This document shows positions 18,647 through 63,473 of a stretch of 64,000 nt of DNA, in pieces; the first letter of the stretch is position 1, and each line of letters starts with the position of its first letter. The stretch spans positions 304,250 to 368,249 of the forward strand of contig JAJEKV010000302.1 in assembly GCA_021234155.1 (NCBI GenBank), in the 5' to 3' direction. The DNA is from Isoetes taiwanensis (lineage: Eukaryota > Streptophyta > Lycopodiopsida > Isoetales > Isoetaceae). The notes under the pieces are model-generated. The model saw only the letters and a program-made list of their open reading frames with translations. It had not been told where the DNA came from and searched no databases. The position numbers and the translations under genes were made by a program.

Positions 18647-21600
18647 ATGGGCGAGGCAGCAATCCACCAATTCGGCAATATCCTTCTTGGAGGGCGAGGA
18701 GGCACGGTATTACATTTTCCATGTTTTTTTCTGTCTATTTTCCTTTTTGGCAGCATGAGATCTTCTTTTCCTTGTTTAAGATGGGCTCGTAGTGGGTTTT
18801 GTTAAGAGCCTTAAAGCATTCTATTAAAGGTTTTATGAATCCTACTATGGGTACAGAATCCTGGTCAGCTGAAAATTCATTCCGGTGGTTTTTTATGGAA
18901 GAAAACCGGAGGAGGGAAGGTTGTAGAGGTAGCGAAGGCTGACATTCAGTCTATTACTTGGACCCGTGTTCCGAATGCCTATCAGTTAGGAGTTCGTCTT
19001 AAAGCAGGCTCTAACGTCAAGTTTAATGGATTTCGAGAACAGGTATTTGCCTGCAAACACATATGCAAGCGCTTACAATGCTGTTTTGTGGCATTCTCAT
19101 CATACTCTTCGCCTGCCATGTTGATTGTTTCGCAGTCTAGCTTTGTTGCAAAGTAACCGGTTTCTTGCATGCAGGATGTCTCCACTATAAGTACCTTTGT
19201 TTCTTTAAATATGGGAGTTTCTCCAGAAGACTTGCCACTTGCATTGAGTGGCCGGAATTGGGGTGAAATTGAGCTGAAAGGTCGGCATTCTTTTTTGACA
19301 ATCAGTATATGCTAGCTACATGATTGGCAAATGACCGTGAAATGTGTCAGCAGGCAATACCTTAGCATTTATGGTCGGGGGAAAGCAGGGATTTGAGATT
19401 TCAGTAGCCGATGTTTCACAAACACAAGTGCAAGGAAAAAATGATGTGCTGATGGAGTTTCATGTCGATGATACAGCGAGTGTGAATGAGAAAGATACAT
19501 TGATGGAATTAAGCTTTCATATTCCAAATAACAATACAACTTTTATTGGAGACGAAGAGCGCCCATCTGCACAGGTACAACAGATGTATGTGAAGAAAAT
19601 TTATTTCTGCAAGCGCACCAGTATCCATTCACTATTTAGAACTTCTATAACCATAGGCTGTACCAGGTATTCTGTGACCGAATACTATCTATGGCGGATG
19701 TAGGACCTAGTGGAGCAGATGCCATTGCTCTGTTTGAAGAAGTTGGAATTCTTACACCAAGGTATGCAGCTTGATGTCTTTTTATGAAGATGGATATGTT
19801 AACATCATCACATGTTTGTAGGGGTCGTTACAATGTGGAACTGCATCTTTCTTTTCTGCGGCTTCAGGGCCAGGCTAATGATTTCAAAATTCAATATGCT
19901 AGTGTCGTCCGTCTTTTCATTCTTCCAAAGGTGTGATGTGGCTCTTTCTAGTGCAGCTTTAGCATGCACATTTTGTTAGCAGTTTGCTTATGTTGTTTAA
20001 TGGTTAAAATTTTTATTGTTGCAGGCAAATCAGTCCTATACTTATGATGTCATTACGTTGGACCCTCCTATACGGAAGGGCCAAACATTTTATCCTCACA
20101 TAGTTTTGCAGGTACATCAAATATGGTGAATTTGATATATTTGTAGACTACCTGTTTTGTTTCTTACCTTATATTTCGCAGTTCCCAACTGAAGAAATAG
20201 CTGAGTGCACTTTATCAATGAGTCCTGAGCTCTTGGAATCAAAGTACAAAGATAGACTTCAACCAGCCTACAAGGTAAATTTCACATGCACATCTTTGAA
20301 GAATCATACTTTTGCACGTAGTCTGTTCACAGAGTATGTTCCTGGTTCTTGTATCAGGGTCTCTCTCATGAGGTATTTGGTCAAATTCTTCGAGGTCTCT
20401 CTGGTGCGAAAGTCACGAGACCTGGGAAGTTTCGGAGTAGTCAAGATAGCTATGCAGTACGAGCATCTTTGAAGGCTGAAGAAGGAACCTTGTACCCCTT
20501 GGAAAAAAGCTTTTTTTTTCTTCCCAAACCTCCTACACTTATATTGCATGATGAGGTATGTATTAGCAGGGAGTATGGTATTGTTTTCTTATTATGGGTT
20601 GCTTTTATTAATGTTTATGTGATGTTGCAGATTGAATACGTTGAGTTTGAGAGGCATGGAGCTGGAAACAGTATTTCCTCCAAAAACTTTGATCTTATCA
20701 TACGTTTAAAGAGTGACCAAGAACATCAATTTAGAAACATAATGCGGAATGAATATCATAGCTTATTTAGATTTGTGAGGTAAGTACACGGAGGCTTCAT
20801 GCTCAAGTAAATTATTTAGCTTAGCTTGACCCACTATTATGTTTATGAATTTTGCAGTTCAAAGGAACTAAAGATCCTGAATGTGGATCCTCAAGGAACG
20901 AGTGCAGTTGTCGAAGCCCTGCAGGGTTCAGACGATGAAGGTGTTGATCCACATCTTAATAGGATCAAGTCTGCTAGGGAAAGTGGTGCAGCTGGTGATG
21001 GAGGAGACAGTGATGAGGAGGTAAGTTGGACTTATGTACCTACATGGGAAGATATATGATATGTTTTTCATTTAAGGGAAGCTTAATAGTAATTGCCATT
21101 TTATTCTTCTAGGATGAAGATTTTGTAGCAGATCGGGATGATGCAGGTTCCCCAACTGATGAGTCAGATGAGGAAGGAGGAAATGCCAGTAACAGTAGTG
21201 GCGGAGAAGAGGAAGAGGAGGAAGAAGAGGAAGATGTAAGCTTTGCATATGCATCAAATTATTGGAGTAGCAAGCATCTGTTGTTTATTTGTAATATAAT
21301 ATCCAATTATTTTGTAGAAACCAGTAAAGAAAAAGGAAAAAAAATCAGAGGTCGCTCCAAAGGCATCCACACAAAAAAGAAAATCACGCAAAGATGATGA
21401 CGAGGATGGTGGAAAGAAAAAGAAGAGAAAAAAGAAGGATCCAAATGCACCAAAGAGGGCTCTGTCTGGATTTTTTTACTTTTCGATGGCTGAAAGAGAG
21501 GTAATTTTATTACAAGGATGTAAATGTGTTTTGGTAAAAGGGTTTACGTATGCATATTTGGGAAAAGTCGTATATTAATGCTTTCTTTTCTGGTGCAGAT

Positions 21601-34557: not shown

Positions 34558-35655
34558 CTATAAGCTTCCAACAAAGGAAGATAGTCTTGGAAGAATTCTT
34601 CTTGTGTGGGATATATTTTGATACTTTACCAAGTATCGACGTCGTTGTCCCTTTCCCTTGTGTTGAAGAATCATCTCAGGAACATAGATTGGGTCCATTT
34701 CTTCCAACTGCGGCTCAACCTCAATAGGCAGTATCTGAGGGTTAAGACCCTTGAATGGCCGCAAATACTCGATGTTAAATGCATTATGCATTCGCCACTC
34801 CGAAGGTAGTTCAAGTCTATAAGCATTGTCATTTATCATCTCGATGATCTTGAACGGCCCATAGTTGCGTGTCAACAACTTATGTTTGCTTTGTTCAGGG
34901 TGAGCTTGTCGTTCTTTGATGACTCGTATAAAAACCCAATCATCAACTTCAAATTGCACATCACGTCTTCTCTGATTTGCTTGTCTAACATATTTTGCTT
35001 GAGCAACTTCAATTGAACTTTGGGCCGCCTTTAAAACCTCGTCCATGTTATGTGCCACCTTGTCAGCCTCCATCACTCCTTCCGCCACCTTAATCATAGG
35101 AGTTGGGGGTAATCTCCCCTGGATGACTTGAAAAGGTGCTAAATTTGTGGCAGAATGTGTTGCCATGTTATAGGCAAACTGTACTATAGGCAAATAATTC
35201 TCCCATTTCCCTACGTGCTCATGCACATAACTTCGGAGCATAGACAACAAAGTTTTATGAGTCACTTCCGACTGAGCATCCATTTGCGGATGAAACGTTG
35301 TAGAAAATTTCAACTTAAATCCCAGACTAGTGAATAGAGCACGCCAAAATTTACTACAAAATTTGGAATCACGATCTGATATGATTACTTCTGGAAGTCC
35401 ATGATTTTTGAACACCTCTCTCAAGAAAAGTTGAGCAGCTGCTGTGGCCTTCAATGATTTCTTGCAAGATATAAAAATTGCATACTTGCTTAATCTATCC
35501 ACAATGGTCCACACCTGATCATTACCTTGCACACTGTGAGGTACAGAAACAAAGTCCATTGTCAAGTGTTGAAAAGGCCTTTCTGGTATACACAATGCCA
35601 TGAGTACCCTGGAGTCTTTGCATGTGAATCCTTTGTCTTTTGACATGACAAACAA
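34558..35655 (-). pseudogene. Gypsy integrase with chromodomain-like C-terminus
   Basis: 365 residues. The catalytic DDE core is visible: 'LTMDFVSVPHSVQG' (first Asp), 'EVIISDRDSKFCSKFW' (second Asp), and 'HPQMDAQSEVTHKTL' (Glu). The integrase C-terminal GPF/Y-like part ('LLTRNYGPFKIIEMI') and a chromodomain-like end follow. The N-terminal HHCC finger ('CLSCQKTK') lies in the preceding frame (35562-36827), so a frameshift separates the finger from the core near 35600. Confidence 0.88.
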
Positions 35656-36827
35656 TTTTCCACAAAAGTGACTACATCACTTCTAAGAGTTTCCCAATAA
35701 AAATACCTTGACACCAAGTCTAGGGTGTTGATTATTCCCCTATGACCTGCAGTAGGTACCTCGTGACATTCTTTCAGCACAAGATCACGAAAATCTTTTG
35801 TCACACATAAACAATCTTTGTGGAACAAGTACTCCCGTCGGATGTAATAACTGTCCACCACTCGTGTTTGGCTATTCTTTAACAATGCCCAAACTTCCCC
35901 AAACTCCGCATCATGCTCATATGCACTTTTCATGTCCACGAGCGTATGTTCCTCCCATGAAGAAAAATTATTCACCTGAATAATGGACTGAGATTGCTGA
36001 TCTGACATCCGGCTTAAAGCATCGGCAACTTTGTTGGTGCTACCTGGAAGATACTTGATTGTGTCAACACCAAACATTTGAAGATATTCTGCCCACTTGA
36101 TTAGGCGTGGGGTAGCAGCAGCTTGTGTCAGAAGAAATTGAATGTTTTGCTGATCAGTTTTAATTTCAAACTGAGAACCTATAAGATAATTCTTCCAGAT
36201 TTTAAGGGCATGAACAATGGCCAATAACTCTTTCTCATAAACCGTGTACTTCAGCTCTGCAGCATTCAACTTGCAGCTCTCAAAGGCAATGGAATGCTTA
36301 TTTTGTTCTAACACGGCCCCAATAGAAGATCCACTAGCATCCGTACAACACACAAAGAATTGAGCATCCAAATCTGGTAATTGTAACACAGGAGCAGAAG
36401 TTAAGCGACCCTTCAAAGTTTGAAAAGCATCTTGTTGAGGCTGGTCCCAATAGAAAATCGTTTTTTTCTTTAAAAGGTGAGTGAGAGGCAAAGCAAGTTG
36501 AGCAAAATTGCGAACAAAACGGCGATAGTAACTGCACAAACCTAAGAAGGAACGCACTTCTGACACATTTTGTGGAACTGGAACACGGACCTTAGCAGGA
36601 TCAACATGAATACCGGCAGCAGAGACAACATGCCCAAGATATTCAACTTTGGCCTCAAAGAAAGTGCTCTTCTTCCGATTAATGAACAACTTGTTGATTC
36701 GAAGAGTTTCAAGAACCTGACGCAGGTGTGCCATATGCTCTGCTTCATTTTTGCTAAAGATGAGAATATCATCGAGAAACACTACCACAAACTTGCCAAG
36801 AAAAGATCTTAAAATGCGGCTCATCAT
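35562..36827 (-). pseudogene. Gypsy reverse transcriptase C-half, RNase H, integrase finger
   Basis: 421 residues. RT motif C is 'VVFLDDILIFSK' (FLDD), then 'YLGHVVSAAGI' and 'FLGLCSYYRRFVRNFA'. RNase H begins 'FVCCTDASGSSIGAVL' with its catalytic Asp, and continues 'YTVYEKELLAIVHALK' and 'TDQQNIQFLL'. The integrase zinc finger (H..H..C-x2-C, ending 'CLSCQK') closes the frame. RT motifs A and B are in the next frame upstream, joined only by a frameshift near 36825. Confidence 0.9.
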
Positions 36828-37414
36828 ATGACAAAAAGTAGCGGGTGCATTAGTAAGACAAAAGGCATAACAAGGAACTCAAAATGACCAAAGGTAGTGC
36901 GAAAAGCTGTCTTAGGAATATCTGTTTCAGCGACTCGGACTTGATGGTAACCGGACTTAAGATCAATTTTACTGAAAATGGTAGCCCCTTTTAACTTATC
37001 CAAGAGATCATCAACATGTGGTACTGGATATTTGTTTTTGATAGTCGCTTTATTGAGTGCTCTGTAGTCAATACACATTCGAAAACTACCATTCTTCTTA
37101 GTGACTAATATGACTGGAGCACCATATGGAGAACTGCTTTCCCGAATCAACCCACGTTCAAGAAGTTCTTGGATTTGAGATTCCACCTCTTTCTGACCTG
37201 CAGGGGAAAGTCTGTGAGGCACCCCTGCAATTGGAGCAATACCTGGCTCAAGATCAATTTGGTGATCTTCAGGGCGCTCAGGTGGCATCTCCACCACATC
37301 ATCCTGAAAAAGATCGTGAAAAGAATTCAAAAGACCCAACCTATGATGCTCAAGAATGGAATATTGCATCTCATGTTGTTGCTTTGAAAAGACATAAACG
37401 AAGTGTGCATGCAA
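36824..37414 (-). pseudogene. Gypsy reverse transcriptase N-half
   Basis: 196 residues. It contains '[19 protein letters not shown]', '[19 protein letters not shown]', '[20 protein letters not shown]' and motif A '[16 protein letters not shown]' with the catalytic Asp. Motif B should read '[13 protein letters not shown]' in this family, but the frame degrades right after 'FEFLVMPF', so an indel near 36860 ends the reading frame. Confidence 0.88.
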
Positions 37415-37488
37415 GGGATTCTTGCGGAGACAACGTTTGATAGCAGCATACCCTACTTGAAGTATAGGGTTTCGAGACCAAATTCCTG

Positions 37489-37800
37489 CTAACTTGATGG
37501 AGCCACTGGATCCACATCACGCCACCAAGGCATACCCAAGACAAGGTCCACATTTTGTAAATTGGGTACAACTTGAAATGTTCTGATGGCAGCATAAGCA
37601 CCAATAGAGAAAGACTGATGCTGAACCTTTGCTGAACAAGCCCCAAACATGTTTCTGCAAATACCTGCAACTGCCCGAGTGCGGAAACGAACTGTAGGTA
37701 ACTTGAGTTTTGTGACTAAGGCCTCAGATATGAATAAGAGAGTGATTGCCAATGGCCCCATCGAATAACAATAAATCAGGAACCTCAGTACTACTAGCAT
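37489..37800 (-). pseudogene. Gypsy protease region, frameshifted
   Basis: The expected aspartic-protease motif is damaged. The gag frame ends 'LLFDGAIGNHSL', with the D-S/T-G triad disrupted. The flap-side sequence ('[16 protein letters not shown]') is in another frame. At least two frame changes lie between 37430 and 37760. Confidence 0.75.
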
Positions 37801-38776
37801 CAGAACCAGACATCTCCATGGCTGAAGATTTAACAGGTCCCTTATCTCTCTTATTATCCTCCTTGAAACTCACGCCTAAATGATTGTCCCCATCAGAGCG
37901 TGGTTTCTTAGCACCATGGGTGCAATCTCGAGCAAAATGCCCAGGCTTACCGCAGTTATAGCAATCAAAAGATCGGGATTCCCGTTTTCCCAGACGATTG
38001 AAAACTAAATTTCGTTGTTTGGAATCCTTTGTAAGCTCTTCTTTTGAAGCGGCCATCTGAGACTGAGACCTATGTCGTGACCTTTGCCACCTCTTTCGAA
38101 ACTCAGAATGAGCTCGAGTATTATCAGACTTTTTGTTCTTATTGTCAGCCTCATGAGCTAAAGCCATTGTACGAGCTTGTTGTAGAATTTTGGGCCGCAG
38201 CAACTTAATAAAGGAAAACTCCCTTCGCAAGGCCGTAAGGAATCGTACCCGCCGATCATGAGAAGAAATCCCCGGAAGAAGACTGAGCAAGGAGTTAAAT
38301 CGGCTCGTAAAATGTTTCACCGTTTCATCCTCTCTCTGACGCAAAGTTTGCCACTGATGTTTAAGATCATCCTCAAAATCACCGGGAAGACATTCTCGCT
38401 TGAGCAATTTCTGCATACGTGCCCAAGTAACAACAGGATATCCTGCATCCTCCATCTTGGTTATCCACTGCAACAGCGAGATACCATCCCGTTCGCCCTT
38501 AAAGAATGTAAGAACTTCCTTAGGATCTTTCAGAAACTTCTTTTTAGCAGCTTGCTTTTTATCCATAGGACGGTCAGAACCATCAGAATTATCCCCTCCA
38601 TCTGGAGAACTCCCATCAGGTGAGGAATCTCGAGACTTTGAATCATCACTATTGGTTGGCTCATTATGTCGGGGTCGATGTGCTACCTTATGGTTGTTGA
38701 ATTTTGTACTCTCAGAGACCTTCCGATCACTGAGCTTTTTGACCTCAGCTAACAATTCTCGCATTGTCCTTACCAA
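37724..38776 (-). CDS. Gypsy gag with CCHC zinc knuckle
   Basis: 350 residues, the longest intact part of the element. An N-terminal Ser/Asp-rich segment is followed by the retrotransposon gag capsid core ('LQWITKMEDAGYPVV', 'WQTLRQREDETVKHFTSRFN') and a basic stretch. A single knuckle, CYNCGKPGHFARDC, lies near residues 272-285. It would coat element RNA in cytoplasmic particles. Its C-terminus runs into the broken protease. The leader 38777-39113 to the 5' LTR has no gene. Confidence 0.88.
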   Translation of the reverse strand: MVRTMRELLAEVKKLSDRKVSESTKFNNHKVAHRPRHNEPTNSDDSKSRDSSPDGSSPDGGDNSDGSDRPMDKKQAAKKKFLKDPKEVLTFFKGERDGISLLQWITKMEDAGYPVVTWARMQKLLKRECLPGDFEDDLKHQWQTLRQREDETVKHFTSRFNSLLSLLPGISSHDRRVRFLTALRREFSFIKLLRPKILQQARTMALAHEADNKNKKSDNTRAHSEFRKRWQRSRHRSQSQMAASKEELTKDSKQRNLVFNRLGKRESRSFDCYNCGKPGHFARDCTHGAKKPRSDGDNHLGVSFKEDNKRDKGPVKSSAMEMSGSDASSTEVPDLLLFDGAIGNHSLIHI

Positions 38777-39113
38777 CGAATCTTCCTAATTACCAACCGT
38801 AGCACTCTTTGTGTGCCCATGACCCTTTCGAGCATCCAGCATCATCAGAGAATCTTGTAGAAATCCTTCACTTACTAGTGGAACTTGATTTTTTGAAGCA
38901 TCGAACGCCATCTCATGCTTTTTCTTATTTTTTTGTAAGCCAGACCCATCAGTCATTCCTTTTCCAAGGCCATCGTCTTTTTCCGGCAGAACTTCTCAGG
39001 ACAGTCCTGACGACTTCTTAAAACGTCGGCGTGAAGCGCTCGACCCCTCACCAGCAGATAAATCCATGACTTCTGCTCAGATTGTGTGCTGAAACTTCGC
39101 TTCCAATTTCCAG

Positions 39114-47588: not shown

Positions 47589-49099
47589 ATGGACTGTATT
47601 TTCGGAAGATGCTTGTGTGGAGGAAACAGGTAAGCAAATGGTCTCACTAGGGGTGCTATAATCAGGTCTGGCTTTGTAAATTTCTACTATCTCATAGGGT
47701 TACTAGATGCCTCCTGTGCTTTTGTTTGACCTCTCGAGATGAAAAGTGTCGGAAACACCATGTACATATCTTTTGTGTCTCGCCCGGTTTTTGAGGACAT
47801 ATGCATTATAACGATCTGCATATTTCTACAGACCTTCGACGGATAAGAAGTCGGCTACATGGAGAATATTTTCTTTGAAAGAACTTCATGCTGCAACAAA
47901 CAATTTTAATTATGATAACAAACTTGGGGAGGGTGGCTTTGGCAGCGTTTATTGGGGACAGTTATGGGATAGTTCTCAGGTGAGAAAAATGTTGCTGTTT
48001 TTTCATTTTTTTATTTAATATTTGAGCTTCGTGCATTTGATCACTAACAAGAGGTGTTACGATTATAGATTGCTGTCAAAAGACTGAAGGTATGGAGCAC
48101 AAAAGGAGAATCAGAGTTTTCAGTGGAGGTTGAAATTTTAGGTAGAGTTCGCCACAAGAATCTCCTAAGTCTTCGAGGCTATTGTGCTGAAGGACAAGAG
48201 CGGCTTATTGTTTATGATTATATGCCCAACTCTAGCCTTTTTACTCACTTGCACGGGAACTTTGCTGCTGATTCTCTACTTGACTGGCGAAAAAGAATGA
48301 ACATAGCAATTGGTGCTGCAGAAGGAATTTTGTAAGCAACATCACTTAGATTATGTTTGTTTCTATTTTCTCATTCATATAGAGGAAAGAGATATGTTAC
48401 TTAGTAATTATCCATGTCCATTTGTGTTTTTTTGATAACAGGTATCTACATCATCACGCAACACCCCACATTATTCACAGAGATGTGAAAGCCAGCAATA
48501 TATTACTTGATTCCAGCTTTGAAGCTCAAGTAGCAGATTTTGGCTTTGCAAAACTGATTCCAGAAGGTGTGACACATGTGACTACTCGGGTTAAAGGGAC
48601 ATTGGGATATCTTGCCCCTGAATATGCCATGCTAGGCAAAGTTTCAGAAAGCTGTGACGTTTACAGTTTTGGCATTCTTTTGCTTGAATTGATAAGCGGA
48701 AAGAAACCAATAGAAAAGCTTGCCTCTGGTGTTAAACGGACAATTGTTGAGTGGGCTGCACCCTTTGTTCTTCAAGACAGGTTAAGCGACTTAGTAGATC
48801 CAAAGCTGCAAATGAAGTATGATGAGGAAGAACTGAAATGCGTTGTTCGAGCAGCCACTTTATGTGCTCAAAATTCCCCAGAGCATAGGCCAACCATGAT
48901 GGAAGTGGTGCAGCTGTTGAAAGGAGAATCTAAAGGCAAAATTTCCAGGCTGGAGAATGGACAAAAGGTAAAACTTGAGACAGTCCAATACGAGGCAGAG
49001 TTGCTAGAGGCAGATGACTCGGTCTCAGCTGGAGAGCTTAAAATACAACCAACTAAGAATACAGTGCAACTCCCTAAAGATATGGTTGTGGCTTGTTGA
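47589..49099 (+). CDS. PTI1-like receptor-like cytoplasmic kinase (At3g15890 type), 4 exons
   Basis: Exons: 47589-47629, 47832-47979, 48069-48331, 48442-49099; 369 residues, phases consistent. This is a cytoplasmic Ser/Thr (RLCK) kinase without an extracellular or transmembrane part. Kinase landmarks: Gly loop GEGGFGSVYWG (46-56), catalytic Lys in IAVKRLK (67), HRD (163-165) in IIHRDVKASNILLD, DFG (183-185), and GTLGYLAPEYA in the activation segment. The sequence closely follows the plant PTI1-like kinase At3g15890 (WRIFSLKELHAATN, RGYCAEGQERLIVYDYMPN). The tiny first exon encodes MDCIFGRCLCGG, with Cys at 3, 8 and 10 that could be palmitoylated; Gly2 is absent, so no myristoylation. All key catalytic residues are present. 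The C-terminal ~60 residues are acidic and variable. Poly(A) signal AATAAA at 49173-49178. Confidence 0.92.
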
Positions 49100-50875: not shown

Positions 50876-50912
<37 letters not shown>

Positions 50913-50998
50913 CTGAATATTTATAAGTATTGGCCTCATAATAGGTGTTTTATGAAGTATGTCATCTAACAACTGATAGTATTATGCTAAGCCATCTT
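50876..50998 (+). mobile_element. Poly(T)-led 86-bp 5' fragment of the Penelope-like unit (copy 0)
   Basis: A run of 37 T (50876-50912) is followed by 86 bases (50913-50998) identical or almost identical to the 5' starts at 51894-51979 and 59908-59993. After 'gctaagccatctt' the sequence diverges. The last shared bases and the new sequence share 'attatgct', a short microhomology at the break. Confidence 0.85.
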
Positions 50999-51877
50999 AT
51001 TATGCTCATGACTCTCCTGGCAGATTACATCTTCTAAGACTTGCTGATTTCCATGTTTTACTACTGCTGTTTAAAACTGCTACTATAATCTTATGATGAA
51101 CGTATTTAGTATACTTGTTCTTGATGTTATATCTACAAGGTACTGCTGCTGTTTTCACCTTGAACTATAAGGTTTATGTGGCATGTCTCTTCTATTTTAG
51201 GACCGAGTTTATGCAAACTATTGGGCCTGTACCTACATTACAAAGTCTTAAATATAATGGCTGGAGATATTGCACTCATGGTGTGTTGATGATAATATGA
51301 TCTAGGCCATTTACTTTGACATAGTCTTGTGGTAGTTGCTGATAATTCAGTTACAGTATAGTTCTTTAGGCATGGGCTTATCGGCTGCGTTGTACACCAC
51401 TTAATTGATCAATGGTAACTAACCTAAATTCAAGTCTAGTATGAACGTCATAATCTGCTAAGCTGCAGCAATTATGATTAATATCCCTGTATATAATACT
51501 TCATATATTGAGCTTCACATATGACAGTATTTGGTGTGTATTCGACCGGGTTGTCTCCATAAATGCAGACCTATAAGAATGATGAATGTAGCATAACCTT
51601 AACCTGCCCCCTTGGGGATTGATATATAATTATAGATTTCAATCTATGTCTAAACTATATACTAGATCAATGGACCAGTCAAGGGTTCAATTGTCCTACT
51701 ATGGTTCTTGATTTGCATTGGCTTCGTCTAATGTTATTGATTTAATGTTTAGAGTCCTGTGAAAGTAAGTGCCATCATGGATTTAGATCCGGGTATGGGC
51801 TGATAATACTACTTATGGGATTGATCATAGTAGATGTCATGGCTAGTGGGCTTTTGCTAAGGCTAGTGTGGACTGGA
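50999..51877. other. Spacer between 5' fragment and full unit
   Basis: About 880 bp without a recognised frame, not matching the rest of the 8-kb unit by eye. It ends in 'gactgga' before the 16-T run that starts copy 1. Confidence 0.5.
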
Positions 51878-52238
51878 TTTTTTTTTTTTTTTTCTGAATA
51901 TTTATAAGTATTGGCCTCATAATAGGTGTTTTATGAAGTATGTCATCTAACAACTGATAGTATTATGCTAAGCCATCTTCTAACCATTATATGTGGTAGA
52001 TTCGAGAGGTAAAACCAATGGTCCTATGATACTAATATTAGGTTTAATTTGAGACTTATTATAGGATAAGCTCTGCATTAAAGAAAAGGTAAAGGTAAAA
52101 TGGCAGGCTTAAAGTTAAAGCTGCTCACCAACATTTGAGGCGGGCCTTGATGTGGCGCCGTAACCTAGATTCAACTATGTGCAGACGGCATTTATGGTAG
52201 TCTAGGAAACTGGTTAAGGTAAATACCTTAGCAAAATT

Positions 52239-55200
52239 ATGGGGCATGATTCTGATTCGGATTCAGACGGTCTTAGTGCTTGTGAGGCGCTGAATGAGCA
52301 GATACTAAACCAAGAGTTAGAGTGGTGTTCTCTGAATTCCGATCAGTGGAGAAATAGTTCTAATAAGATGAGCCGTGGTAGGGGCTTTGATGCCAAAAGG
52401 GCTTTCCATGATAACAATAGTGGGCAGTATAGCAAGAAAACATCTTCCTTTAACAGGAATAAGCAGCAGTACTACAAGGGCGGTAGCTCTTCTAATGACT
52501 TTGTCCCGGAGACGCAAGTTGACGAATTATTTGAATATGACAATGACGAATTCCAGGTATGAGGAATAAATTAAAAAATCGTATTAGGGATTCAACACCT
52601 TAAAAAGGAGTCTTTGCTGGCAGCGGCCATAAACAGATAAAGCTGAGTAACATATGAAAGCATAAAGGATTAGTTAATATCAAAGCTTAGAGTACATGAT
52701 GTAACAATCCATTTGGAGATGATGTGCTGTTTACTTTGATGGCTTCTAGCTAGCTAACGTGCAGTATTAGGATAATCTAGGCTGTAACAAAGGGGTAGCA
52801 GGAAACTGTGTTAATGGTTTATGATATTTATCTTTCTTGGAAAACAGGAGCTATGGTAGGATACCGAAGTATAGCTTGATAACATGACATTAAATAAGGA
52901 TTCTATCTTATTTTGATCTGTCAAGTGTTCTTAAAATGCATTTTATATCCATTGTACATGCTAACGTAGTTGAGCAGGGGCAAAAGTGTACAAAAGGTGA
53001 AGGGCGATAAGCCGAGAATCACCTTATGTACCTTTTGGCCCTTGCCTTGTTACCAAGATTATTGCTAACATTGGCTTGATTGGCTGCAGATACGTGTGAT
53101 TCTCCTCCTTTTGTATCAGTTTTTGTCTTTCTGCTCAACTATAGTTGCTATGGAGGTGGATATCTTGAAGAATATGGTTTGTTCGTGACCAAGTATATGA
53201 TCTGAGTTGAAACCTGTGTAAAAGAAAGTGATGATATGCTGAAAAGAGAGATTGAAGTATGAATCTTAGTATTCGAAAATGGAGCTAAACAGGGAAGGTT
53301 TCTTTTTTTGTATCTTACCTTAAGTGCATACACACCTTTCTGCCTCTTTTTCAGAAAACGGCATATGCCAGTATTAGAAACTTTATGCTTTATGCTATCA
53401 TAATGTATGTGTTGAACAAATGATCAGAAAAACATATCTGTGATTTTTCTATTTTGGATAAATAGTAATGCAGACTGTAAACATGGTATATGACTCATTA
53501 CTAGACATGTTTTAAGGCAGGTTGATGTTATTTAAAGAAAAGAAAGGGTTTCCTTTACAGAAAAGTTGCAAAACTAAAGCTGTTGATGAGTATAAAATGG
53601 GTCCCCATCTTAAATTATGTATTGAGCTTGGGCTTAGGATAATGATACATTAATATGAAAGCATGGGCTGAAATATTAGCAGTTACAGTAATTCTAATGT
53701 TATGAAACAAATACAGTACAGTCTAAAGAATGTATTTAAATAATTGGTGAAATGTAACCTGAATGGTTAAAAGTACAGTTTTGGTAGACATACCAATAAA
53801 TGGATAAGTTGTGCCTGAAAGGAGCTTTTTGGCTTCATGCCTAATATATGGCAACCATGATTGATCAATGTAAAGGCAGATGGTATGTACATATAACAAG
53901 GTATAATTAAAAATTAAAACTTGAGTTAGAGTTGCATTTCTGGGTGGAGGTGTGCCATTACAAATGAACTCAGTTTGTATATGGGAAGTTAACATTACCA
54001 AGGGATTGACCAAGGTATGTAGTAGCGCTAGTTGGGCTGTTGTCATAGCTAGTTCTGACTGGATTTTTTTTAGACATTTCTTCTCATTGGTCTTACCAGT
54101 GAAACACCACACCTTGATTATATTGGAGAGCCAACTATTAGCCATAATGTATAAGGCATTAAACATTTTGTGTAAGTACTAATGTACTGACTGAAAATTA
54201 TGCATACAGGACAATGCTGAAACTCAAACTGATTACATTCCAGCTGAATGGAATAAGGAGCTACTAAGCATAGGATATGGCAGAATCAAGATTGACTGTC
54301 CTAATTATGCAGTACAGACTCTGCTATGCTGCATTCGAATTGGAAGTGTACATCAGCTGATTCTGGAGAAGGAATATACAAGAACACCTGAGCAGTATTC
54401 GGCTATAGCACACCTAGGTTTCAGTGATTGGCTGGAACTAATCCCTGAGATCAATAAGTGCAGTGACACATTGGATGATGCTGTCAAAGTGGTTGAAGCC
54501 ATATATGAAGGAATCCCCGGGAGAATCTACAATCACACTGTGGAAGAGGATCAGGCTAAAAAATGTTTTCTGACAGGCATAGTAGCTTTGGAAAAAGCCA
54601 ACCAGATTACTAAATCAAACTCGGGTAAAGACAATGACCCTGCAAATACGGAAATGACTGGGCTCGAAATAACGGATGAGAATGATGATGACCCCTTTGG
54701 CGAAAGCCTTCTATCTGAGCAAGATAGAGCCACACTGCAGCATCCAAAGACTAAGGCCAACAGTATGGATGATAATGACTTTGATTTCACATTATATAAT
54801 TGTATGAGATTCCCGGTTATACCTGAGAGGTTGGTGGAAGGGCATGCTGCCTTTTGTAATCATGGAATATGGAGAGCAAAGAATTTTTTGGCGCTTAGCT
54901 CAATAAGCGGAAAAGCATGGCTAAGCTTAGGAGAAATAACTGATGAGCAGGTTAAGTATGCTAAGGCTGCAGCAATCAATATGGAAAAGGTTATCAAGAA
55001 GGAGAAAATTAAGTTAAGGTTTGACCACAGATTTTTTGACAAGAAATGCAACAAGGATGACTGTATTTACATTAGGCAGAAAGGGCATATGGCCTATCCT
55101 TCCATGGATCATGGTGACTTTTACCTAAAAAGATATGGAGAACAATGTGCCCGTACTTTAAATGTGTGTGTGATCCAATGGCTAGGGGAAACGCATGCAA

Positions 55201-55765
55201 GGAGAACATGACCTGGCTGGACCAGGGAGTTTGGTATATGTTCAACAATCTGGACAAAATTTACCCTGAAGTTTCTGTAGCAGGACAAATGTTCTTGATG
55301 AAGAAATGTTTAAAAACCGTGCTGAAATCAAGTATTATTGCATATATATCATATCTGGAAATTAGGGGCACGCTCATTGATATGGCAGTCTATGCAGCAG
55401 CAGACCCTTGTGCTGACTTGAAGATCCATTTCCAGCAGGGCAAAATGACTGAAATATGTGAAAAAACTATTAAGCCGCGCTCGTTTATGAAAATCATGGA
55501 GAAAACAGCCAGTAATAGTGGCAGCAAAATACCTGAGCATAGTAAATCCAAAGTGTCTTATGGTACACCAAGTTCTGGCTATAGACCACCAAGGATCACA
55601 AGGCCACCAGGGATAATGAATGGAACTGAGGTGACTAATATAACTGATAGCTCATCAGTGGAAATCATAGGAACACCTGGAGCTGTCGGGCATTCTTCCA
55701 CCAAAGTAATGAAACCAAATGAGAATACGGTTGCTGATGGAGCCGTACGGAAACTCAAGCTATGA
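52239..55765 (+). CDS. Penelope-like ORF1, two exons, with a frame break
   Basis: Exon 1 52239-52556 (106 codons) starts with an acidic Ser/Asp repeat after MGHD, then an Arg/Gly/Ser/Asn/Lys-rich stretch, as in nucleic-acid-binding low-complexity segments. It ends CAG|GTATGA. Exon 2 starts after GCATACAG at 54210 in phase 0 and stays open to 55211. The next coding-like frame (55145-55765, shifted -1) carries a Cys-rich start (CPYFKCVCDPMARGNAC) and continues 200 residues to a TGA at 55763. The switch must fall between about 55119 and 55209. It is present in both copies, so it is either an inherited lesion or used deliberately; no canonical slippery heptamer is visible. Cys and His around 55040-55190 could form a zinc site. 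No homology to a known ORF1 is recognised. Confidence 0.6.
52557..54209 (+). other. Intron in Penelope-like ORF1
   Basis: 1,653 bp, GTATGA donor and TGCATACAG acceptor, phase 0 on both sides. The exon 1 frame stops at once (V, stop) if the intron is not removed. It is retained with the same borders in copy 2 (60571-62238). Short minus-strand frames inside look incidental. Confidence 0.75.
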
Positions 55766-56044
55766 TCCAATGGTAAGTCCAACAGTTCATATCTAAATTC
55801 AGTATATGGTACCATATTGGCTCTGTATTGCTGTGGTTATTAGCATTTCTTGCTTTCCAGTGCCTTCTATGAAAGGCACTAATAAAACATAAAAGTGAGT
55901 CATTTGACTAAACCAGTAACATGGTATTGTATCCATATGACCACTTGGCCATATAATACACAAGGTATCCAGTAGAGAACTAGTTTTTGGCTAACTATAG
56001 CATATAATAAGTAAGCCATGGTTTAATTTGTATAGTGTGTGCAG

Positions 56045-59000
56045 ATTGAGAGGTACATCCGAGTGGACAGTCTAGGGAGAGCTCATCTGTCTGATATGAG
56101 GAATAAGAATGTGACGTCCCCTACTCCTTATACGATGCCCGCATCGTACTCGAAGGAGGAGCATTCCCCCTGGCAGCTGCCTGACAGGGGCCATCCACCT
56201 GACTCCACTCCCATGGGGGCAGAGCCAGCAAGGGAAGAGTGGATGTGTCATTCATCCGTCTTCCATCGGATCGACCTATCTGCGGAAGCGTAACAAACAA
56301 ACGTGAGCACAACCAATAATATACAACATAATCACCATAACAATAGCAACATCACAGAGTCAGCAATACCTTCATAACAATAATACAAAGGGAAGGTCCT
56401 ACCTGTGTCTCGACTCAAGGGGATGACCGACGGCTAGGCCTCCGAGTTAGTTCGCTGGGCATGAATTCATGGCAATGGATTTGGCTGGCATAGAACATGG
56501 CTTAGGGTAGTCCACTCCATCCGCCCCTCCCGTGCACACTTTGCAGAGTAGGCTGAAAAGTGTTGGGACTTGGCCGTAGCCTGCCGGGTGAATAGCCAGA
56601 GGGGCTACTACTGCTGGGTTGCATCTCCCCAACCCCGATGAGGCAGGAAGAGAGCTGCCTCTCCTCCAGAGGTATCCATGCTCATCGCAGGCGGCTAGAG
56701 GGCCACTGCCCTTATTCGACTTGAACTCACTGGAAGGTCATATCCACCACCCCACGAGTGTCGAGCTCATGCCTTGCCCACACGCAGTGGCAAGCCATTA
56801 AGCCTAGCCAGCAAAGACCCCCGATAGGCTTTACTACCAGAGGGGTCAGTCCGCGATGAGACAAGTTCCTCCTTATCAACCGGCCTTGCCCCTTCACCCT
56901 GCCGGGTGGGCTCACGTACCGCGGGCGCAATTATGTGGGAACTAAGGTGCTATGCTAGGAGCATCTTCTACACAGCCTTTAGGTCTCTACCCCCCTTCCC
57001 ACAACAAGGAGATCACAGAGTAGAATACATACAATATCACAGAACAGAGATAGAGAATCATATCAATCTATCTACTTAACATCCAATGTTAGGTTCATTC
57101 GTTAGAGTCTCAGATCTATGGATCTACAAGGCTTCCAGAGATGATCTAACATACTAAACCGGCATATTGCCATGCCTAAAGAGCGGTTTTGCACTGCGAG
57201 AACAACTAGATACCTGCTCCTTGGCTTGCTCTCGATCCTTGGAAGGCGTCCATGCTCTGATCTTGCGAAGGCGGCTGCTACTTTCAAGAACTTTGTTGTG
57301 CAAATCCGACTTTTCGGAGCCTGGCAATGCGATTTCGAGCCTTACCTTGGCCGAATTGGCCCAGGAAAGCCCTAAATGCGAATGAGGAAAGGAAGCTCTA
57401 GAAAACCCTAATTGGCAAAGTGAAAGGAGAGCTAGGGTCTAGGGTTTTAGCCCTTATATAGACCCTATCTAGGTTAGGGCATCCACATGGGCAAATGGCT
57501 TTAGGCCATTTGGAAATGGATGAACAAGGAACCTTTTGTTGTGTATGTTTAATTACATACCCAACATCCAAGGTTGCCCCCTAGGTGCAACCTTTAGCTC
57601 CTAGGTGCAACGTTGTCCTACTCTCAAGTACATGTCACTTGTGACATGTACGTGTGACGTGGCAGTATAATATACGTATTAGGGCGTATATTATGCTGGA
57701 ACGTCACAAAGAAGAAAGAAAAAATTGTACACTGCCTGTTCCTGTCTAAAGTCATGGACAAATTCTGTATACCTAAGATCATACATAGAGCCATGACGGA
57801 AGTACTAGGAGATGTTGGATCTATAATAATGAATGACACCATGTTTGCCTGGAAATATACTGAGAATCTGAGAGATATCTGCTATAAGCCTTTCTATGTT
57901 TTTGCCTTGGACCAGAAAGCTGAATGTCCGTGTAAAAACCCAAACTTAAGGAACTTCATTGATACAGATATAGGACATGTCAGGACAACTAGATTGGAAA
58001 TTGTAAAGAATAAGGCACTCATGAATCTCTTTGAGAAAGGCCTTAACCATATTCCCGATAAATGCTTGGCATGGAATGATTTAGAAGGTGAAATGGATGG
58101 TGTATGTGACAAGATTTTTGAGCTGCAGCAATACAGCTTTCCTAATATCTTGTATGAACACAAAAAAGAAATTAAAAGGAGGGTACTTCTCGAGGTTAAA
58201 GAACGTCTTGAGGCAGCATGTAAGCATGATGTAACAAGGAAATTTGCATTAAGTGACTCTATGGTCACCAGTAATCTGGAGTGGCTTACAAAAAATTTGT
58301 ACATATCAGGAGTGGATAAGGCAGCAAATAATCCCTCTTTTATATGCCCAAACCACATTAGAAGCATGGCCATTTTGCGACTCAGCAGTAGTGATTTTCA
58401 GCCCATAAATATGAACATTGAAGATGTTAGTGTGTTTATACAGGATGGCATCCGAGAATGTATGGGTAACATTAGCTTTGAAGTGACAAAATTACCTTAC
58501 CTGTTAGGACTATTCAAGGCACATAAAATGGACTACAGGTGGATAACAAATGCGCATGGAACTATCTACACAGAAATATCTGAAGTAATTACATCAGTGC
58601 TTAATTCCATTGTGGAAGCGTGGCCTGATATATCCAAAGAATTATGTGCCAACATCTGCACAATGATTCCTGGGAAAGTTAACCCCAATTGGATAGCTGG
58701 TTCTATATATGAGGTAACCCTCAATTTACCCAGCAGGATTAATGAGGTCTTCGTGGCTGACATCACTCGATGTTATGAGAATATACCCCTAAAAGGGGAT
58801 AATGGTATTTGTAGCATCATGCAAAAAATAGCTGAAGCTACATGGAAATACATGAAAGGTATGAACAAGAGATATGATTTATGGTTGAAGAAAGGAAGTG
58901 ATACTAAATATGTGGCCCAATGGTTTAAAATGGTACCAAAAGGTAAATGCTGGCATAAGATGGAAATGGAAAAGTTTATTAAGACTAACAACTGGCTACT

Positions 59001-59712
59001 AAATAACTGTTTTATCAAAATGGGAAAGCAGGTCTGGCAGCAAGTTTGTGGGATCCCTATGGGCTTTGCATGTAGCCCATGCTGGTGCAATCTGTACCTA
59101 GCATGGTTTGAAGTTAACTTTATCAAGAACTTAGCAGCACAAGGAAGATACGAGGAGATAAAATCTTTTAGACATATCTTCAGATATATTGATGATCTAT
59201 TGGCCCTCAATTGTCCATCCATTAGGAATTTTCTGAGTTGTCTCAATCATGGGAACATTGATAGGTTGCAAATATATGACATGAATTTTCTAGGTATTAA
59301 AGAAGAAACAAAGATGAGCAAAAGCTCGGATGGTCTACATGGGGTCATGGCCAACTTCCTGAATATGACTATACAGATTAGTAACAAGCAAACAGGTATC
59401 TACAGGACTATAAGGTATGATAAAAGAGACAGTCTGCCTTTTGAAGCCATCAAATTTGTCCACGCATCCAGTTGCAGACCATACATGCAGGCACGAAATG
59501 TGATATTATCTCAGATCATGCCGTACATGTATGTTAATTCCAGCCCTGTCAAAGCAGCTGAAGACATTACAAAATTAATGGTAACTTTTGAACAGAATGG
59601 GTTTGACAAGCAAGGCATAAGGAAACGTGTCATAAAGTACATCAAAGCAAGTCAGTTTCCAGGCCTAAAGTATGACACTAGTACTCTGATCCAAAGCTTG
59701 CTGGAACAATAA
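56045..59712 (+). CDS. Penelope-like reverse transcriptase, exon split by a solo LTR
   Basis: The main frame 57754-59712 encodes 652 residues. A frame from an acceptor at 56044 runs to the LTR at 56110 and lines up in phase with the frame resuming after 57713, so the exon was continuous before insertion. RT motifs: A 'VFVADITRCYENIP' (catalytic Asp), B 'VCGIPMGFACSPCWCNLYLA', C 'FRYIDDLLAL' (both Asp), and a later 'GIYRTIRYDKRDSLPF', matching the 'T..Y.K' block of Penelope-like RTs. 'LPYLLGLFKAHKMDYRWI' precedes motif A, as in this group. No GIY-YIG domain follows; the frame ends 20 residues after the last conserved block. All catalytic residues are intact. In-frame ATGs exist on both sides of the LTR, so 57754 may still initiate. 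Confidence 0.75.
56110..57708 (+). mobile_element. Solo LTR, 1,599 bp, inserted in the RT exon
   Basis: It begins TGTGACGTCCCC and ends ..GGAACGTCACA, with an 8-base terminal inverted repeat TGTGACGT/ACGTCACA. AAGAA lies directly on both sides (56105-56109 and 57709-57713), the 5-bp target duplication. It has no internal gag-pol, so it is a solo LTR left by LTR-LTR recombination. It is more GC-rich than the element it interrupts. A TATA-like CTTATATAGACC lies near 57453, followed by ~250 bp, consistent with a plus-oriented U3-R-U5. 'cctaggtgcaac' is repeated near 57580 and 57601. Confidence 0.9.
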
Positions 59713-59810
59713 AAGGTACTGGACTTTGTATTTCTGTTAAAACAAATAGTAATGATTGCTGAAACAAGATTTTCTTTGGGTCTGAATTTTATTTATGGGA
59801 TGAAGCATGA

Positions 59811-59831
59811 CCCCTACTATAATAGTAGGGG
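59811..59831. other. Palindrome in the 3' region of the Penelope-like unit
   Basis: CCCCTACTAT, one base, then ATAGTAGGGG forms a perfect 10-bp inverted repeat 99 bases after the RT stop codon. It is followed by G/A-rich sequence with 'ggtaggg' just before the next poly(T). It could act as a terminator or as a template-recognition structure. Confidence 0.6.
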
Positions 59832-59907
59832 GATGCCCATCCTACTGTTATAATATATCTAAAAGGGGAAATGCCTACATCCTACGGCTGGAGGTAGGGT
59901 TTTTTTT

Positions 59908-62900
59908 CTGAATATTTATAAGTATTGGCCTCATAATAGGTGTTTTATGAAGTATGTCATCTAACAACTGATAGTATTATGCTAAGCCATCTTCTAACCA
60001 TTATATGTGGTAGATTCGAGAGGTAAAACCAATGGTCCTATGATACTAATATTAGGCTTAATTTGAGACTTATTATAGGATAAGCTCTGCATTAAAGAAA
60101 AGGTAAAGGTAAAATGGCAGGCTTAAAGTTAAAGCTGCTCACCAACATTTGAGGCGGGCCTTGATGTGGCGCCGTAACCTAGATTCAACTATGTGCAGAC
60201 GGCATTTATGGTAGTCTAGGAAACTGGTTAAGGTAAATACCTTAGCAAAATTATGGGGCATGATTCTGATTCGGATTCAGACGGTCTTAGTGCTTGTGAG
60301 GCGCTGAATGAGCAGATACTAAACCAAGAGTTAGAGTGGTGTTCTCTGAATTCCGATCAGTGGAGAAATAGTTCTAATAAGATGAGCCGTGGTAGGGGCT
60401 TTGATGCCAAAAGGGCTTTCCATGATAACAATAGTGGGCAGTATAGCAAGAAAACATCTTCCTTTAACAGGAATAAGCAGCAGTACTACAAGAACGGTAG
60501 CTCTTCTAATGACTTTGTCCCGGAGACGCAAGTTGACGAATTATTTGAATATGACAATGACGAATTCCAGGTATGAGGAATAAATTAAAAAATCGTATTA
60601 GGGATTCAACACCTTAAAAAGGAGTCTTTGCTGGCAGCGGCCATAAACAGATAAAGCTGAGTAACATATGAAAGCATAAAGGATTAGTTAATATCAAAGC
60701 TTAGAGTACATGATGTAACAATCCATTTGGAGATGATGTGCTGTTTACTTTGATGGCTTCTAGCTAGCTAACGGCAAATAATTAGGATAATCTAGGTCAG
60801 AACAAAGGGGTAGGTGAAACTGTGTTAATGGTTTATGATATTTATCTTTCTTGGAAAACAGGAGCTATGGTAGGATACCGAAGTATAGCTTGATAACATG
60901 ACATTAAATAAGGATTCTATCTTATTTTGATCTGTCAAGTGTTCTTAAAATGCATTTTATATCCATTGTACATGCTAACGTAGTTGAGCAGGGGCAAAAG
61001 TGTACAAAAGGTGAAGGGCGATAAGCCGAGAATCACCTTATGTACCTTTTGGCCCTTGCCTTGTTACCAAGATTATTGCTAACATTGGCTTGATTGGCTG
61101 CAGATACGTGTGATTCTCCTCCTTTTGTATCAGTTTTTGTCTTTCTGCTCAACTATAGTTGCTATGGAGGTGGATATCTTGAAGAATATGGTTTGTTCGT
61201 GACCAAGTATATGATCTGAGTTGAAACCTGTGTAAAAGAAAGTGATGATATGCTGAAAAGAGAGATTGAAGTATGAATCTTAGTATTCGAAAATGGAGCT
61301 AAACAGGGAAGGTTTCTTTTTTTGTATCTTACCTTAAGTGCATACACACCTTTCTGCCTCTTTTTCAGAAAACAATAATAGGCAGAATGGCATATGCCAG
61401 TATTAGAAACTTTATGCTTTATGCTATCATAATGTATGTGTTGAACAAATGATCAGAAAAACATATCTGTGATTTTTCTATTTTGGATAAATAGTAATGC
61501 AGACTGTAAACATGGTATATGACTCATTACTAGACATGTTTTAAGGCAGGTTGATGTTATTTAAAGAAAAGAAAGGGTTTCCTTTACAGAAAAGTTGCAA
61601 AACTAAAGCTGTTGATGAGTATAAAATGGGTCCCCATCTTAAATTATGTATTGAGCTTGGGCTTAGGATAATGATACATTAATATGAAAGCATGGGCTGA
61701 AATATTAGCAGTTACAGTAATTCTAATGTTATGAAACAAATACAGTACAGTCTAAAGAATGTATTTAAATAATTGGTGAAATGTAACCTGAATGGTTAAA
61801 AGTACAGTTTTGGTAGACATACCAATAAATGGATAAGTTGTGCCTGAAAGGAGCTTTTTGGCTTCATGCCTAATATATGGCAACCATGATTGATCAATGT
61901 AAAGGCAGATGGTATGTACATATAACAAGGTATAATTAAAAATTAAAACTTGAGTTAGAGTTGCATTTCTGGGTGGAGGTGTGCCATTACAAATGAACTC
62001 AGTTTGTATATGGGAAGTTAACATTACCAAGGGATTGACCAAGGTATGTAGTAGCTTATTTGGGCTGTTGTCATAGCTAGTTCTGACTGGATTTTTTTTT
62101 AGACATTTCTTCTCATTGGTCTTACCAGTGAAACACCACACCTTGATTATATTGGAGAGCCAACTATTAGCCATAATGTATAAGGCATTAAACATTTTGT
62201 GTAAGTACTAATGTACTGACTGAAAATTATGCATACAGGACAATGCTGAAACTCAAACTGATTACATTCCAGCTGAATGGAATAAGGAGCTACTAAGCAT
62301 AGGATATGGCAGAATCAAGATTGACTGTCCTAATTATGCAAGATGACTCCTTTATCTTTGCATTCGAATTGGAAGTGTACATCAGCTGATTCTGGAGAAG
62401 GAATATACAAGAACACCTGAGCAGTATTCGGCTATAGCACACCTAGGTTTCAGTGATTGGCTGGAACTAATCCCTGAGATCAATAAGTGCAGTGACACAT
62501 TGGATGATGCTGTCAAAGTGGTTGAAGCCATATATGAAGGAATCCCCGGGAGAATCTACAATCACACTGTGGAAGAGGATCAGGCTAAAAAATGTTTTCT
62601 GACAGGCATAGTAGCTTTGGAAAAAGCCAACCAGATTACTAAATCAAACTCGGGTAAAGACAATGACCCTGCAAATACGGAAATGACTGGGCTCGAAATA
62701 ACGGATGAGAATGATGATGACCCCTTTGGCGAAAGCCTTCTATCTGAGCAAGATAGAGCCACACTGCAGCATCCAAAGACTAAGGCCAACAGTATGGATG
62801 ATAATGACTTTGATTTCACATTATATAATTGTATGAGATTCCCGGTTATACCTGAGAGGTTGGTGGAAGGGCATGCTGCCTTTTGTAATCATGGAATATG

Positions 62901-63473
62901 GAGAGCAAAGAATTTTGGCGCGCTAGCTCCAATAAGCAGAAAAGCATGGCTAAGCTTAGGAGAAATAACTGATGAGCAGGTTAAGTATGCTAAGGCTGCA
63001 GCAATCAATATGGAAAAGGTTATCAAGAAGGAGAAAATTAAGTTAAGGTTTGACCACAGATTTTTTGACAAGAAATGCAACAAGGATGACTGTATTTACA
63101 TTAGGCAGAAAGGGCATATGGCCTATCCTTCCATGGATCATGGTGACTTTTACCTAAAAAGATATGGAGAACAATGTGCCCGTACTTTAAATGTGTGTGT
63201 GATCCAATGGCTAGGGGAAACGCATGCAAGGAGAACATGACCTGGCTGGACCAGGGAGTTTGGTATATGTTCAACAATCTGGACAAAATTTACCCTGAAG
63301 TTTCTGTAGCAGGACAAATGTTCTTGATGAAGAAATGTTTAAAAACCGTGCTGAAATCAAGTATTATTGCATATATATCATATCTGGAAATTAGGGGCAC
63401 GCTCATTGATATGGCAGTCTATGCAGCAGCAGACCCTTGTGCTGACTTGAAGATCCATTTCCAGCAGGGCAAA
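59908..63473 (+). mobile_element. Penelope-like element, copy 2 (3'-truncated)
   Basis: It follows copy 1 directly after 'gaggtaggg' and a run of 8 T. It repeats the leader, ORF1 exon 1, intron and most of exon 2 with very high identity, but stops at 63473 after 'cagcagggcaaa', where copy 1 continues. The RT is missing. Offset from copy 1 is 8,014 bp at both the 5' start and the ORF1 start. Confidence 0.85.
60253..63473 (+). pseudogene. Penelope-like ORF1, copy 2 (stop codon, truncated)
   Basis: Exon 1 60253-60570 differs from copy 1 by one short patch (Lys-Asn in place of Lys-Gly-Gly context near 60492). The intron is 60571-62238. Exon 2 from 62239 has an in-frame TGA at about 62344, inside an 18-base block that differs entirely from copy 1 (54313-54330) though equal in length. 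The -1 frame break near 63174 is shared with copy 1. The ORF ends at the truncation. Confidence 0.7.

Follow-up and report, generated by a model that had tools for sequence, protein, structure and literature searches.

How a retroelement could insert away from telomeres without an endonuclease (EN) of its own is the question raised by a locus of Isoetes taiwanensis. We analysed a stretch of 64,000 nucleotides from contig JAJEKV010000302.1 (positions 304,250 to 368,249 of the forward strand; hereafter the window, to whose numbering all positions refer), in which a Penelope-like element (PLE) with two open reading frames (ORFs), ORF1 and an ORF2 that carries the reverse transcriptase (RT), occupies positions 50876 to 63473. 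We consider it somewhat probable that this is an endonuclease-deficient, two-ORF PLE of a land plant, inserting at T-tracts by the route proposed below.

Tandem arrays with T-runs at their 5' ends

In the window, a full-length unit (unit 1, 51894-59899, 8006 bp including a solo long terminal repeat, LTR) is followed head to tail by unit 2 (59908-63473, delimited by alignment to unit 1), which is cut on its 3' side inside ORF1. All features of the element lie on the plus strand, with the solo LTR left unstranded. The direct repeats are spaced by 8014-8029, and 51886-55444 and 59900-63473 are 98.6% identical over 3578 columns; unit 1 was delimited from these repeats and from its 3' end GGAGGTAGGG, which is common to other arrays. 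Upstream copies align at 50897-50998 (102/94 bp). The unit-start sequence CTGAATATTTATAAGTATTGGCC was located three times, at 50913, 51894 and 59908 (mean expectation 0.00 in 100 shuffles, allowing up to three mismatches), and the T-runs ahead of these starts measure 37, 16 and 8. The identity and the threefold start sequence bear out the full unit, the 3'-truncated unit and the 86-bp fragment of the initial annotation, the last of these being a 5' stub of T37 plus the first 86 bp of a unit (50876-50998; from the repeat alignment, the T-run and the start-sequence search). The T16 run read at the 5' end of unit 1 lies at 51878-51893, and the two units are joined by a 3'-end hairpin (TCCTACGGCTGGAGGTAGGG) and T8 (59880-59907), recognised by comparing junctions across loci.

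Between the stub and the T16 run, about 880 bp (50999-51877) may be the 3' end of an upstream copy that has diverged, as the last ~85 bp resemble the element 3' terminus (...GACTGGA). The score of the last 100 bp was reached by 8 of 2000 shuffles and that of the whole 880 bp by 19 of 300. Position 51877 looks like the array terminus of a diverged copy, with modest statistics, and other arrays end at the matching position. A stub of ~85 bp of unit beginning is also present ahead of the unit start at the C703 and C1063 junctions, with a break point similar to that in the window, and may mark another site of initiation or jumping.

The differences between the two units are mostly patchy, and a TGA lies in frame at 62344 in unit 2 (frame worked out by hand). 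Patches of difference lie at 52760-52801, 54312-54329 and 54888-54909; gene conversion or a local assembly error would look like this. As the end of the window is the end of the contig, insertion and deletion are indistinguishable as the cause of the cut in unit 2.

The genome-wide search for copies and their flanks (1.66 Gb in 1110 contigs) gave at least 44 RT matches, with 40 of 943 candidates scored, and found tandem arrays in T-tracts. Besides the window, 17 loci groups were compared, taken mainly from the upper part of the RT match list. In 17 of the 18 loci, a T-run and then a unit start come after a unit 3' end; the exception is the fragment C79. This agrees with the PLE-like head-to-tail arrangement noted in the initial annotation. 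The T-run is exactly T8 at 17 of 21 junctions (T6, T7, T7 and T10 at the others), and the 20 bases ahead of it fold with -3.5 kcal/mol or lower at 19 of the 21; in C1067a and C1067b, one hairpin pair is altered on both sides.

At the 12 located 5' ends, which include both window values, the T-runs range from T6 to T37 (median 21) compared with T8 at the junctions (p 1.2e-5, for a hypothesis framed post hoc), and 11 of the 12 exceed eight. The first C1063 junction (...GGGC then T8) was omitted from this test, as were C1051a, C1051b, C415 and C79, whose 5' ends are unlocated, and C1067a and C1067b, whose starts are disturbed. C703 and C1063, which occupy the same site, enter the counts as one case for ends and separately for junctions.

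The main rival explanation takes up this difference in length. The terminal T-runs could have been made by the RT itself, through slippage or re-copying of a U8, so that ends grow beyond eight and internal tracts stay at T8. Apart from the constant junctions and the longer, variable ends, this would suit the telomerase-like fold predicted for the RT and the host flanks, whose bases adjacent to the T-runs agree at no more than two positions in the five arrays with both ends located, with no target site duplication (TSD). However, slippage of a microsatellite in a pre-existing host tract would fit the same data, and neither the T6 at the 5' end of C1018 nor the lack of a 3' T-run in C1035 is what T addition by the RT would give, and we regard it as unlikely.

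Array 3' ends in a putative intron

ORF1 is interrupted by a putative intron, intron 1 (52557-54209, GT-AG, phase 0), which includes a T8 tract at 54064-54071. At other loci of the genome, arrays have their 3' terminus at the position that corresponds to this tract. Exact 3' ends were located there in C1018 (T15), C1037 (T11), C952 (T13) and the site shared by C703 and C1063 (T22/T9), that is, in 4 of 6 independent cases, and the tract at these ends reads T8 inside intron 1 of the first copies. In C290 and C1078, the 5' repeat had no counterpart in the 3' stretches compared, and these ends are unlocated. Other break points are found in window unit 2, in C712 (after ~300 bp), in C1067a and C1067b (below 200 bp) and in C1028 (~510 bp); these five downstream copies could be either true ends or the result of later damage. 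C1067a and C1067b lie ~45 kb apart with the downstream partial unit broken at the same place, and are perhaps a duplicated locus.

Another explanation that has to be judged by these 3' ends is an antisense RNA with a poly-A tail as the template, possibly copied by the machinery of a long interspersed nuclear element (LINE), with the tail appearing as the 5' T-runs. This would explain the kept introns and the cuts on the sense 3' side: in the window three copies have a common sense 5' boundary (at T37, T16 and T8), and two of them, the stub and unit 2, are cut short on the 3' side. The varied breaks in C712, C1067a, C1067b and C1028 would fit as well, and antisense templates have been proposed for PLEs (PMC3846280). 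Against it, 4 of the 6 array 3' ends lie exactly at the intron-1 T8, also with T-runs, and the T8 of the internal junctions is apparently templated. An antisense poly-A template was mostly dropped because of the 3' ends at other loci and is kept, as a very unlikely explanation, because of the variable downstream breaks.

A proposed route of insertion at T-tracts

In the model that we prefer, a typical array would be composed of a T-run, at least one unit, a partial unit (pseudo-LTR) ending at the intron-1 T8, and another T-run. The template would be the unspliced sense RNA of an array. An A-rich DNA 3' end, exposed where an A/T tract is broken or nicked, could pair with the U8 inside intron 1 and prime reverse transcription from this internal position. 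Copying would continue until it reaches the U8 at the unit 5' start, and the A-ended cDNA would then be joined to the T-tract on the other side; an endonuclease encoded by the element would be unnecessary in this scheme. Reverse transcription of an anole PLE starts inside its RNA and the element occurs in tandem (PMC11167929), and the proposal for EN-deficient PLEs is that exposed 3' ends serve as primers (PMC3846280). The internal start of the former and the exposed ends of the latter led us to propose priming by A-ended DNA on U8.

It is also possible, although doubtful, that the U8 tracts of the RNA, in the intron and at the unit junction, serve as landing pads for A-ended DNA and that RT slippage adds extra Ts, building poly-T ends at chromosomal breaks as telomerase adds telomere repeats. 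If this landing-pad reading is true, it is a sequence within the intron that fixes where the mobile unit ends on its 3' side, and unspliced RNA would therefore be required.

Several points weigh against insertion by this route. The array ends and the conserved coding are observed, and priming by A-ended DNA, the template and the order of the steps are what we infer. T-tract insertion is read from occupied sites alone, so the T-runs may predate or follow insertion, and the T-run comparison was devised after inspection of the data. Among the 5' ends, that of C1018, with its T6, does not fit this route either, that of C1078 is missing the initial bases of its own unit start, and 2 of the 12 T-runs (T16 in the window and T22 in C1028) adjoin the apparent 3' end of another copy, not host DNA. 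Among the 3' ends, that of C1035 is at the same point of intron 1 but has no Ts, the last unit of C1025 stops ~45 bp short of the intron-1 tract, and the fit falls to 4 of 11 if the five downstream partial copies that break elsewhere are included. Rfam scans found no hammerhead ribozyme in the window, where the core pattern occurs at chance level and not inside the element; in the paper on the anole PLE, a hammerhead is described as consistent with other PLEs (PMC11167929). Furthermore, frames are broken in most other same-genome loci read, and both introns of the element were placed from the sequence alone.

Selection, derivatives and DNA-level duplication

Nonsynonymous differences (pN 0.09-0.24) were lower than synonymous ones (pS 0.48-0.91) in all 10 pairs of five RT copies, which were picked for uninterrupted RT matches and one of which has a stop, with pS saturated in most pairs. 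This indicates purifying selection on the RTs. The RT of C1037 is stop-free, but a stop is located just ahead of it. C1035 is a tandem of ~3.16-kb units without most of ORF1 and the RT in which both unit ends are kept, and is likely to be a non-autonomous derivative that was moved in trans.

It could be argued instead that arrays grow mainly by DNA-level events, such as unequal exchange or break repair at T-tracts, and that reverse transcription is marginal now. C703 and C1063 have their flanks and an internal deletion in common, which indicates, for at least one of these loci, either DNA duplication or a haplotype copy, and the patchy differences between the window units are as expected from conversion. 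However, the same kind of 5' end is found in different flanks, RT pN/pS is low, and the C1035 derivative has the same ends, making growth mainly by DNA-level events quite unlikely. The repeated array ends of C1028 are identical throughout their 509 bp (100%), and those of C290 match at 98.6% across 911 bp; identity is uneven within C1018 (89.7% over 842 columns and 99.4% over another 481) and C952 (90.2% over 745 and 95.8% over 524), so the insertions cannot be dated cleanly.

Coding sequences of the element

Exon 1 of ORF1 (52239-52556, 106 aa) was delimited by its open frame, and tblastn gave matches to it (E <= 0.01, some weak) in 15 of the 17 other loci groups. Exon 2 (54210-55762) contains a -1 frameshift near an A-run at 55127-55131, present in both window units. 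Both ORF1 segments are in one frame in seven same-genome loci, and exon 2 is without stops in all six same-genome relatives read (chosen for single-frame segments); the frameshift therefore looks like a lesion of the window copy, or an assembly error in the A-run. The spliceosomal intron noted in the initial annotation still stands as a putative GT-AG intron; unit 2 retains all of it, and may itself be a DNA-level duplicate.

The initial annotation had found ORF1 to resemble nothing known, which did not hold, since it has homologues in Chara braunii, with the same ORF1-RT pair. The rear part of ORF1 matches the C. braunii proteins P0064 (E 4e-10) and P0063 (3e-7), and the front part matches P0070 (E 1.6e-4). 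A profile search, which scored the 8000 candidates richest in common words and may therefore miss further homologues, returned at least 12 proteins, all from C. braunii. Several of these gene models consist of ORF1 followed by RT, and in P0064 the order is RT followed by ORF1, as expected from a tandem. A Pfam scan gave no convincing match for ORF1, and its structure model (pLDDT 46.9) was too poor for comparison.

ORF2 reaches further upstream than the RT frame, which had been overlooked in the initial annotation. Its putative start codon (ATG, 55770-55772) adjoins a likewise putative intron 2 (55773-56044, GT-AG), followed by a short N-terminal coding stretch (56045-56109, IERYIRVDSLGRAHLSDMRN) and then by the solo LTR (56110-57708), with ends TGTGACG...CGTCACA read by eye and the TSD AAGAA at 56105-56109 and 57709-57713. 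The RT part (57754-59712, 652 aa, open) comes behind it. The solo LTR is absent at the matching place of same-genome relatives, and the 'D.LGR' stretch is contiguous with the RT in metagenome proteins and same-genome copies. This direct joining of the N-terminal stretch to the RT in relatives supports both the solo LTR reading and the intron 2 acceptor; the donor, ATG followed by GTAAG, was found again in 1 of 8 same-genome copies (C703). As the solo LTR interrupts ORF2 and ORF1 is frameshifted, the window copy looks dead, and some same-genome relatives have both ORF1 exon 2 and RT without stops. In an alignment of 57 rows, the Asp of RT motif A is invariant and YIDD is at least 90% conserved, so that, with the open 652-aa frame, the intact RT motifs and the two ORFs first described were confirmed. 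The predicted fold of the RT is telomerase-like; a sequence search of the PDB with the element gave no RT among its matches.

Relationship to other reverse transcriptases

The assignment to PLEs in the initial annotation is supported by this predicted fold and by homology to P0078, which matches the RT with an E of 7.9e-17 over 86% of the query, the CxC region included. P0078, which we take to be Naiad/Chlamys-like, bears an N-terminal GIY-YIG match of 17.0 bits, below the Pfam cut-off of 22.6. It was the only one of 57 aligned RT proteins, and an outlier, in which GIY-YIG was detected (E <= 0.01). The lack of a detected GIY-YIG in the element also stood: the domain, whose presence in other copies had been named as counter-evidence, was found in none of the 18 loci, the window and the 17 further loci groups (tblastn, E <= 1e-4, with the P0078 stretch as a weak single query).

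In trees that hold the homologues found, the window RT, on a long branch, was sister to 52 metagenome RTs (support 91/71) in one and to 20 of these in another (94/89). Topologies that unite it with Chara (p-AU 0.056) or with P0078/P0079 (p-AU 0.085) were not rejected. A second, alignment-based protein search added four proteins, among them no named PLE, and no relatives were confirmed in viral contigs, prokaryotic genomes, plasmids or phages. The metagenome proteins P0001-P0062 form a large clade of related RTs on short contigs, with GIY-YIG in none of those scanned.

Genomic setting

A tie to telomeres had been hinted at for endonuclease-lacking elements of this type. No double telomere repeat was found in the window or in the 17 other loci groups, and for the 12 loci whose contigs exceed 9 Mb the distance to contig ends (which are not proven telomeres) is 0.55-20 Mb. 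On both grounds a telomeric origin was left without support.

Elsewhere in the window, remains of a Ty3-type LTR retrotransposon (gag, RT, RNase H and integrase) lie on the minus strand at 34561-38785, and an Rttp106-like domain (20322-20780) and a protein kinase exon (48383-49096) of plant type represent ordinary plant genes near the element. Together with the Ty3-type remains, they make a land plant the most probable host on sequence grounds.

Comparison with known elements and significance

Telomere-associated EN-deficient PLEs (Athena, Coprina) were reportedly described by Gladyshev and Arkhipova in 2007. The Isoetes element is like them in having a PLE RT without GIY-YIG, and priming from exposed 3' ends is a published idea; however, the Isoetes copies examined are located away from contig ends, without telomeric repeats, and end at T-tracts. 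Naiad/Chlamys PLEs with an N-terminal GIY-YIG are said to have been reported by Craig et al. in 2021; the Isoetes RT is similar to P0078 over 86% of its length, whereas the GIY-YIG part is missing. With Penelope/Poseidon PLEs such as PAc of Anolis (PMC11167929), it shares tandem units with pseudo-LTRs and reverse transcription from an internal site, but it differs in that GIY-YIG was undetected, no hammerhead was found in the window, a second ORF is present and the 3' terminus of several arrays is an intronic T8. The C. braunii models have the same ORF1 and RT, in the same order in several and with the RT before ORF1 in one, at 27-29% identity to the Isoetes RT in the best-covered models.

The suggestion that a plant example may be undescribed was only partly upheld, as EN-deficient PLEs of plants (Selaginella, pine and spruce) are already in print (PMC9033089 and PMC12477314). 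The two-ORF architecture, the intron-embedded 3' terminus and the T-tract ends look new, and in the portions of the literature seen in our search no description of this ORF1 or of T-tract ends was recognised.

The ORF1-RT pair in common with Chara points to a long-lived streptophyte lineage. Endonuclease-free PLEs have so far been explained by telomeres and breaks, and here a family whose RT is under selection, and in which no nuclease was detected, is found away from contig ends at T-tracts. The intronic 3' terminus, if true, would give a concrete reason for the retention of introns in PLEs, and the T-tract ends offer a testable account of how an RT without a nuclease may find a primer away from telomeres.

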